64,000 nt of DNA, from NCBI GenBank assembly GCA_018266435.1, contig JAFEAL010000005.1, positions 248,001-312,000 of the forward strand, given 5' to 3'. The notes beneath the pieces were generated by a model. It was not told where the DNA came from, ran no database searches, and worked only from the letters and a program-made list of their open reading frames with translations. This stretch comes from Bacteroidota bacterium (GTDB taxonomy: Bacteria; Bacteroidota; Bacteroidia; Cytophagales; Cyclobacteriaceae). The translations under genes and the position numbers were made by a program. This document shows, piece by piece, positions 50,755-51,155 of the stretch (within the stretch, counting starts at the first letter, position 1; each line of letters starts with the position of its first letter).

Positions 50755-50848
50755 ATTTTTAATAGTTTAAATATTTTGAATGTTTAATTTTTGAATGGAA
50801 CTGGCTAAGCCTTATTCATGCCCGTCACTCGGCAGACCGTGCGCTTAG

Positions 50849-50876
50849 GTTGTTGCTGGATGTTTAGCTGAACAAC
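50849..50876 (-). promoter_or_regulatory. Hairpin between the Cys-leader ORF and metY (candidate attenuator arm)
   Basis: On the minus strand GTTGTT (50871-50876) can pair with the AACAAC part of CAGCAACAAC (50849-50858). The same 3' arm is complementary to GTTGTTG (50900-50906) inside the Cys codons of the leader ORF. A second pair, CTAAGC (50843-50848) with GCTTAG (50805-50810), lies closer to metY. Confidence 0.5.
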
Positions 50877-50880
50877 AAAA

Positions 50881-50991
50881 TCAACAGCAGCAGCGCATAC
50901 AACAACAAATGTTGCAGCACCAAGTGTTGATAATTTGAGAAAGAGATGCCCTGTATGGGGCCAGATCGGTGAATGAGGTGAATTTTTTCAT
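50881..50991 (-). CDS. Poly-cysteine leader peptide (36 aa) downstream of the SAM riboswitch
   Basis: ATG at 50991 opens a 37-codon ORF to the TGA at 50881-50883. The first 24 residues are ordinary (MKKFTSFTDLAPYRAS...INTW). The last twelve are CCNICCCMRCCC, eight Cys and one Met. The composition is that of a regulatory leader peptide in which ribosome stalling at Cys codons reports the level of Cys-tRNA. It starts only 8 nt after the end of the SAM-I aptamer and ends 127 nt before the metY ATG. Poly-cysteine leader ORFs acting as cysteine attenuators are known in mycobacteria; the same role here is inference. Protein-coding conservation has not been tested. Confidence 0.6.
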   Translation of the reverse strand: MKKFTSFTDLAPYRASLSQIINTWCCNICCCMRCCC

Positions 50992-50998
50992 TTTGCTT

Positions 50999-51092
50999 CC
51001 GGTTTATATTTCAGGAATTAGCACCTTTCCATTTTCAGGAGGGTTGCTAGCGCTTCACAGAGCCTGTCTCTCCGCGCTTCTTTATAAATCGG
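50999..51092 (-). ncRNA. SAM-I (S-box) riboswitch
   Basis: On the minus strand a ten-position P1 (CCGATTTATA with TATAAACCGG, nine paired) encloses the SAM-I core: AAGAAGCGC, GGAGAGACAGGC, the TGAAGCGC-AGCAACC segment and the diagnostic AAGGTGCTAATTCC. Order and spacing match the SAM-I aptamer. In this class SAM binding stabilises P1 and represses the downstream methionine genes. It lies about 25 nt after the promoter start and 245 nt before metY. Confidence 0.93.
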
Positions 51093-51123
51093 TTGAGCTA
51101 TTGCCTCACCGACTATGATGGCA

Positions 51124-51155
51124 CAAACGTATAGTAGATTGGTAGAGTTTCCAAA
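51124..51155 (-). promoter_or_regulatory. Promoter of the metY-metX-hom operon
   Basis: On the minus strand TTTG (51152-51155) is followed after 20 nt by TACGTTTG (51124-51131), a near-perfect Bacteroidota promoter. Transcription would begin near 51117, just upstream of the SAM-I aptamer. Confidence 0.75.

Follow-up and report, generated by a model that had tools for sequence, protein, structure and literature searches.

The window, by which we mean the whole stretch of 64,000 nucleotides analyzed here, carries on its minus strand the genes metY, metX-like, and hom behind a composite leader. Read from 51155 downward, the order is a promoter-like site, a SAM-I riboswitch aptamer, 9 nt of spacer, a short open reading frame (ORF), a segment able to pair with the Cys codons of that ORF (anti-Cys), a hairpin, an AT-rich stretch, and then metY, metX-like, and hom:

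51124..51155, minus strand: promoter-like site, TTTG-N20-TACGTTTG / TTTG-N20-TANNTTTG (pattern match)
51001..51090, minus strand: SAM-I (S box) riboswitch aptamer (RF00162, 75.2 bits, E 8e-16, gathering score 44.4)
50992..51000, minus strand: spacer of 9 nt from aptamer to leader start codon (sequence)
50881..50991, minus strand: leader ORF of 36 codons, C-terminal end CCNICCCMRCCC, full peptide MKKFTSFTDLAPYRASLSQIINTWCCNICCCMRCCC (ORF list and counterparts in relatives)
50871..50876, minus strand: GTTGTT directly past the stop, alternative partner of anti-Cys (sequence; paired with anti-Cys in the predicted free fold)
50849..50858, minus strand: anti-Cys segment CAGCAACAAC (CAAC conserved in aligned leaders)
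50800..50858, minus strand: R1 element, i.e., anti-Cys plus a covarying hairpin with loop NNGUGACR (model match, 60.7 bits)
49432..50754, minus strand: metY, O-acetylhomoserine sulfhydrylase (TIGR01326, 673.8 bits, cut-off 495.1)
48291..49364, minus strand: metX-like, homoserine O-acetyltransferase (closest family TIGR01392 with 347.7 bits, under the cut-off of 500)
47065..48294, minus strand: hom, homoserine dehydrogenase (NF004976, 332.1 bits, cut-off 205)

Much of this layout had been described in an earlier note made from the letters of the sequence, and comparison with curated families bears most of it out. The SAM-I aptamer, placed there at 50999-51092, is matched by RF00162 at 51090-51001 with a score well over the curated gathering score (75.2 vs 44.4 bits). 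The 36-codon ORF, with eight Cys and one Met among its last 12 residues, stands in the ORF list exactly as described, and the pairing segments had been placed correctly at 50906-50900 (GTTGTTG), 50855-50849 (CAACAAC), and 50876-50871 (GTTGTT) on the minus strand. The operon had been named metY-metX-hom, which holds for metY and hom, both above their cut-offs, whereas the protein encoded between them is nearest to the MetX families in the NCBIfam profile comparison but falls under all of their cut-offs. The site at 51155-51124, which we take to fit the TTTG-N20 promoter consensus of Bacteroidota, had been called a consensus promoter; the pattern match stands, but the window shows no enrichment of such sites over shuffles (4 found vs 1.87 expected), and the call is plausible only. 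The leader peptide has no NCBIfam match. In aptamer sequence and fold and in its placement before methionine genes the leader resembles other SAM-I riboswitches (RF00162), and it is unlike them in that an ORF starts 9 nt past the aptamer and no terminator-like site is found in the window. A second SAM-I match in the window genome, the only one besides that of the metY leader, lies before metH and has no Cys ORF.

Distribution and conservation of the cysteine-ending leader ORF

A Cys-ORF was counted where an ATG lies at most 45 nt past the aptamer and opens an ORF of fewer than 70 residues with at least three Cys in its last 15; for the named loci discussed below, ATG, GTG, or TTG starts in the first 60 nt past the aptamer were accepted. 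It should be noted that the rule was fixed after the genus had been seen and lets through some tails that have no real run of Cys (e.g., L274), and that the SAM-I and R1 searches over more than 40 genomes used stricter filters with few candidates scored per genome, so that misses are possible. The genus sample comprised 62 genomes with 140 SAM-I matches, of which 138 were classified, the two left out being contig-end pieces of one genome (G058). Among metY-linked loci the Cys-ORF is present in 52/55 (42/45 directly before metY and 10/10 with an OsmC-like gene between), against 0/56 linked to metH and 0/12 linked to a cystathionine-gamma-synthase-type gene. The Cys tail is thus specific to metY-linked loci when these are set against the metH- and cystathionine-gamma-synthase-linked ones (52/55 vs 0/68, Fisher p 1.5e-31, kin genomes being counted as independent). 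Of the three metY exceptions, L111 has no Cys tail, L126 is N-masked right after the first Cys codons, and L147 has too few Cys for the rule. In the first batch of loci from the genus, an ATG lies 0-14 nt past the aptamer in 42/42 cases linked to metY vs 4/53 linked to metH. Other SAM-I loci of the genus with a Cys-ORF precede a YceI-like gene (8/8), an ATP-grasp gene (6/6), or metX (1/1).

The genes behind these leaders deserve a brief description. An OsmC-like gene apparently lies between leader and metY in ten loci (L050, L087, L114, L134, L135, L141, L143, L145, L148, and L159), where metY starts some 700-900 nt past the aptamer. YceI-like genes follow the SAM-I and Cys-ORF leader in L053, L069, L070, L090, L074, L075, L078, and L083, and ATP-grasp-like genes do so in L062, L094, L115, L129, L131, and L332; some of these loci adjoin further SAM-I copies (e.g., G008:C6). 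The names YceI-like and ATP-grasp-like are our assumption from sequence likeness, and the loci possibly belong to a sulfur or thiol pathway of an unfamiliar kind.

Beyond the genus, the 30 best-scoring SAM-I loci of the family carry a Cys-ORF in 5/8 cases before a close metY and in 0/22 others, among which metX and hom each occur twice and more distant metY-like genes four times. Draws at order and class level gave 42 metY loci (three of them from the same family), of which 40 were scanned with Rfam; SAM-I lies upstream of metY in 33 of these 40 and downstream in one (L247). A Cys-ORF is found by the fixed rule in 22 of the 33 loci with SAM-I upstream and by eye in four more (L214, L220, L226, and L242), while an ATG lies 0-14 nt past the aptamer in 29/33. 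Among named loci, taken as the best 80 of a longer list, 75 match our own SAM-I model and 57/75 have a Cys tail. Carriers occur in Chryseolinea (including Chryseolinea serpens), Mucilaginibacter (including Mucilaginibacter lappiensis), Marivirga, Pontibacter, Cesiribacter, and Solitalea. The named loci and the genus set share members and are thus not independent. The Cys-ending ORF is therefore conserved in related SAM-I/metY leaders, which the earlier note had named as the first thing to look for.

What is conserved in the ORF is its end and its start. In 73 non-redundant leaders of the 90 with a Cys-ORF, including YceI-like and ATP-grasp ones, Cys accounts for 31.5% of positions in the 18-residue tail vs 1.2% in the ORF body, and Met for 6.4% vs 1.1%; the body varies from leader to leader. 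The start lies 7-11 nt past the aptamer in 74/90 Cys-ORF leaders and 1-14 nt past it in 90/90, in a context that is A-rich at -3, -6, and +4 to +7. For Flavobacterium johnsoniae, one of the Bacteroidetes without Shine-Dalgarno sequences, the part of the source consulted describes mRNA structure and an A at -3 as tuning initiation (PMC6847099). Across 12 pairs of leaders, changes at codon positions 1/2/3 number 50/39/65, with 34 synonymous vs 83 non-synonymous, and protein-level constraint on the whole peptide appears weak; the codon-level conservation sought in the earlier note is thus weak for the peptide as a whole. As a probe for relatives the leader peptide matched in 48/146 genomes at E up to 1, and we set these matches aside as chance because in 20 other genomes of the same genus (the window excepted) none coincided by eye with the place of a SAM-I match; conservation thus seems confined to the Cys (and Met) tail and to where the ORF starts.

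Could the peptide itself be the product, binding, e.g., metal or sulfide in trans? Clusters of Cys do resemble metal-binding motifs, but the variable body, the irregular Cys spacing, and the lack of an NCBIfam match make a functional Cys-rich peptide very improbable. Another explanation is that the ORF serves the riboswitch alone, its translation linking SAM to Rho or to the stability of the RNA, with no sensing by the Cys codons. It gains from the 18 named leaders without a Cys tail, mostly Algoriphagus and kin, since an ATG still lies 3-9 nt past the aptamer in 13 of the 18, and from the M. tuberculosis B12 riboswitch and Mbox, whose abstracts have them acting on or with uORFs (PMC11260477, PMC12810186). 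Nevertheless, 31.5% Cys in 73 diverse tails on a variable body is hard to understand without a codon-specific role, and we consider an ORF of this kind improbable. The leader has a conserved ORF directly past the aptamer, as in riboswitch-linked uORFs, and regulatory-type codons cluster close to its stop in a way that is conserved before orthologous genes, as in attenuators.

The R1 hairpin and possible pairing with the cysteine codons

Between the leader ORF and metY lies the R1 element, whose hairpin the earlier note had not remarked upon. Its consensus was built from 32 of 38 leaders, with L109 (poor fit) and five near-duplicates dropped and L056 and L107 (chance GTGAC) removed before alignment, and comprises anti-Cys, an outer stem, inner stems, and the loop NNGUGACR. 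Compensatory change is seen in 7/11 R1 pairs across the 32 leaders, and double-change cells number 44 vs 11.8 in shuffles (0/500 as high; slid controls at most 6), although kinship among sequences can inflate such measures of covariation; further pair types are not exceptional (59/500 shuffles as high). The CAAC of anti-Cys has three invariant columns and one conserved in at least 90% of the same leaders. Rfam applied to 50740-51000 at E up to 10 gave only matches far below gathering scores and none for R1. With six relatives and an E limit of 1 it gave SAM-I, one sub-threshold match elsewhere, and again none for R1. R1 is thus a new RNA hairpin, covarying and without an Rfam match.

The R1 model has a single match in the window genome at E up to 10 (60.7 bits, 150 of 1117 candidates scored). 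Searched alone through 196 genomes of the family it matched in 17, from five genera, and each match lies in a SAM-I/Cys-ORF/metY leader: five are genus leaders already known, and each of the remaining 12 follows a Cys-ORF and is itself followed by metY 43-68 nt on (one match, L200, has further codons past the Cys run). SAM-I was found in 11/11 of these 12 loci that were scanned, and the twelfth is a training member whose SAM-I came from an earlier search. The 42 order and class loci gave only one R1 match, weak and on the opposite strand, and part of the genus is without R1. Because of this we regard R1 as a clade-level part of the leader and not as its core.

Two details of R1 and its surroundings may be added. 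In the NNGUGACR loop (50800-50858) the first and last positions often covary in the alignment, A with A and G with G, which is a hint of a non-canonical pair. In L042 and L044, which have no R1, another hairpin-like stretch, CTGACAAGTCCTGTCACTG, stands in its place; L071 and L091, likewise without R1, have close variants, and in all four the stretch includes the R1 motif GTGACAGG in reverse-complement form.

The earlier note had also proposed that CAACAAC pairs in competition with the Cys codons and with GTTGTT past the stop. Taken in the window alone, the Cys:CAACAAC helix of 7 bp is unremarkable, being reached by 27.5% of 40 shuffles, and its support comes from conservation. The longest Cys:anti-Cys helix averages 7.5 bp in 36 R1-type genus leaders vs 5.6 in shuffles, while three groups without R1 average 5.9, 6.0, and 5.7 bp vs 5.6, 5.5, and 5.4 in shuffles. 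Pairing at p up to 0.05 occurs in 16/37 R1-type leaders vs 7/38 others, and CAACA or CAGCA lies within 60 nt past the stop in 35/39 R1-type leaders vs a fraction of 0.11 of shuffles. The anti-Cys of R1-type leaders can pair with the Cys codons, the stop, or the GTTGTT past the stop. The competing pairing thus stands above shuffles in R1-type leaders but not, on average, elsewhere, and as a general switch it was rejected. The same comparison bears on whether the ORF could be a chance one, with Cys codons that are a by-product of RNA pairing between UGUUGUUG and CAACAACA: the codons can pair with anti-Cys where R1 is present, but where it is absent the run is still in frame, the start is in the same place, and no partner exceeds shuffles on average, so a chance ORF is hardly credible. 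A further candidate, a CAACA..TGTTG hairpin within the ORF, was found in 16/39 R1-type and 8/51 other leaders and set aside.

A classical translation-dependent attenuator, as the layout had initially been read, fares worse. There is no terminator-like site in 50700-51300, and sites picked out by our own rule in relatives are inconsistent (8/47, 0/5, and 4/23 leaders), so that the layout of an intrinsic terminator with mutually exclusive hairpins is not borne out; control may instead involve Rho or act on translation. Six R1-type leaders were folded as single predictions with an assumed ribosome footprint. A ribosome at the stop left anti-Cys mostly free, whereas anti-Cys was paired in the ribosome-free state or with a pause at the first Cys codon; in L082, and partly in L155, it was predicted to be free also at a mid-run pause. 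The R1 hairpin showed no consistent change between ribosome states in these six leaders.

A candidate two-input regulator and the sign of its response

Since SAM-I and the Cys-ORF recur before the same gene in relatives, the operon is probably under the control of two nutrients that act through a single RNA. We think it likely that metY-metX-hom is regulated by a two-input RNA in which SAM-I controls the entry of ribosomes to a Cys-codon sensor; a layout of this kind, with SAM and cysteine as inputs, had been suggested from the window and is supported here. Judged from sequence, the pairing of SAM-I with the Cys-ORF is real and conserved over a wide range of relatives, with R1 as a third, clade-specific RNA part.

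How might such a leader work? The aptamer ends 9 nt before the leader start, within the region that a starting ribosome would have to occupy. As the start codon sits directly past the aptamer, SAM binding, with a stable P1, would most likely lower initiation on the leader ORF, which would then be the expression platform of the SAM-I riboswitch. Ribosomes that enter would pause at the Cys (and some Met) codons when charged tRNA-Cys or tRNA-Met is short. In R1-type leaders the position at which the ribosome stops would decide whether anti-Cys pairs with the Cys codons, and hence which state the RNA adopts near the hairpin upstream of metY. The step controlled may be transcription, possibly with Rho, or translation.

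A CBS homologue scores 509.0 bits in the window genome, just under the cut-off of 510.25, but no match there is of CysE grade, the best reaching 54.6 bits vs 150-177 for CysE-like matches elsewhere, which themselves all fall under the curated cut-off of 210.65. MetY may therefore feed both cysteine and methionine synthesis, and its homocysteine is probably, or at least may be, a cysteine precursor in this genome; the earlier view that metY merely competes with cysteine synthesis for sulfide becomes doubtful here. CBS-like matches do not discriminate, as they are present in all 17 of the 17 genomes tested. The Cys tail was found in 20/21 genomes without a CysE-like match vs 13/22 with one (p 0.009, uncorrected for kinship); four of the 20 were called by eye, and by the fixed rule the same comparison gives 16/21 vs 13/22 (p 0.33). 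This table leaves out G102 and G364 (no SAM-I) and G350 (partial match). Eight other genus genomes are all without a CysE-like match, with the Cys tail present in seven and absent in G016. That loss of the tail goes with a CysE-like match is at best a hint.

Because Met codons lie in the same run and cysteine may derive from homocysteine, we lean slightly toward low cysteine switching metY on. Pausing, at low Cys or Met, would thus raise metY and high SAM would lower it, given that the homocysteine made by MetY is probably also a cysteine precursor here. Some points weigh against this. A strict block of leader entry by SAM would leave cysteine unsensed whenever SAM is high, and this agrees poorly with a need for MetY to supply cysteine under those conditions. 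The mostly free anti-Cys in the folds with the ribosome at the stop would also fit the opposite sign. That opposite sign would amount to an AND gate: translation to the stop keeps anti-Cys free and permits metY, and low cysteine or high SAM lets anti-Cys pair, turning metY off and sparing sulfide for cysteine. The six folds agree with such a gate both in the free state at the stop and in the paired state when ribosome-free or at the first Cys codon. However, Met codons share the tail, and a shortage of Met should induce metY and not shut it; moreover, without a CysE-grade match in the window genome, MetY may feed cysteine too. We hold the AND gate to be possible but doubtful. An extended form of the preferred two-input reading, in which SAM-I, with the leader ORF as its expression platform, sets the ribosome supply to a Cys/Met sensor, ribosomes paused there or queued as far back as the start open P1, R1 takes a further protein or small-molecule signal, and the whole is a widespread sulfur gate, is speculative and, taken together, somewhat unlikely.

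Comparison with known systems and other arrangements

A search of mainly open-access literature brought up no description of a Cys leader ORF behind SAM-I. The leader would unite two known kinds of regulator, a riboswitch and a Cys-codon sensor, in a new combination. The polycysteine sORFs of mycobacteria are reportedly called leaderless in the title of Canestrari 2020; here the SAM-I aptamer and promoter-like site upstream of the ORF would speak against a leaderless start. Passages of the sources on these mycobacterial sORFs (PMC9094748) and on actinobacterial polycysteine leader ORFs, which lie before cys operons and cbs without an obvious terminator (PMC1262725), describe a short ORF with a Cys run at its stop and a proposed or reported response to Cys, as might be the case here. 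The differences are the SAM-I before the ORF, the Met codons mixed into the run, metY as the target, and the occurrence in Bacteroidota. The B12 riboswitch (PMC11260477) and Mbox (PMC12810186) of M. tuberculosis likewise stand upstream of a short ORF, with Rho-dependent termination for Mbox (PMC12810186), and their abstracts do not describe these uORFs as amino-acid codon sensors. The SAM-II metA leader of Sinorhizobium is similar in that a SAM riboswitch acts on an upstream start region, but it belongs to another aptamer class, has in-frame AUG1/AUG2, and its abstract names no Cys run (PMC9373788). Within Bacteroidota, leader-peptide attenuation has been suggested for Flavobacterium psychrophilum (PMC9723704) and Bacteroides thetaiotaomicron (PMC7366714), in passages that do not mention SAM-I with a Cys ORF.

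If the proposed two-input regulation is true, it shows how bacteria without Shine-Dalgarno sequences couple a metabolite riboswitch to codon-level sensing of amino acids, and a single leader may keep methionine and cysteine in balance in organisms in which homocysteine could be the source of both. The carriers among named strains (Chryseolinea serpens, Mucilaginibacter, Pontibacter, and Marivirga) permit direct tests, natural losses of the Cys tail in Algoriphagus are built-in comparisons, and R1 is a new hairpin to characterise.

Other arrangements were seen at some metY loci. In L241, L245, L247, and L275 no SAM-I was detected upstream, and short upstream ORFs with Met and Cys are present (e.g., ...MHAMCMHMCCCMCS), where codons may take the place of the riboswitch for methionine sensing. 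The Cys-ORFs in the metY leaders of L300, L303, L320, and L330 end in ...MP, a separate arrangement; they lie far downstream of the SAM-I match in L300, L303, and L330, and L320 has no SAM-I match. At class level, L247 has SAM-II and SAM-I matches flanking a metY relative, at 552-658 (minus strand) and 3888-3995 (plus strand).
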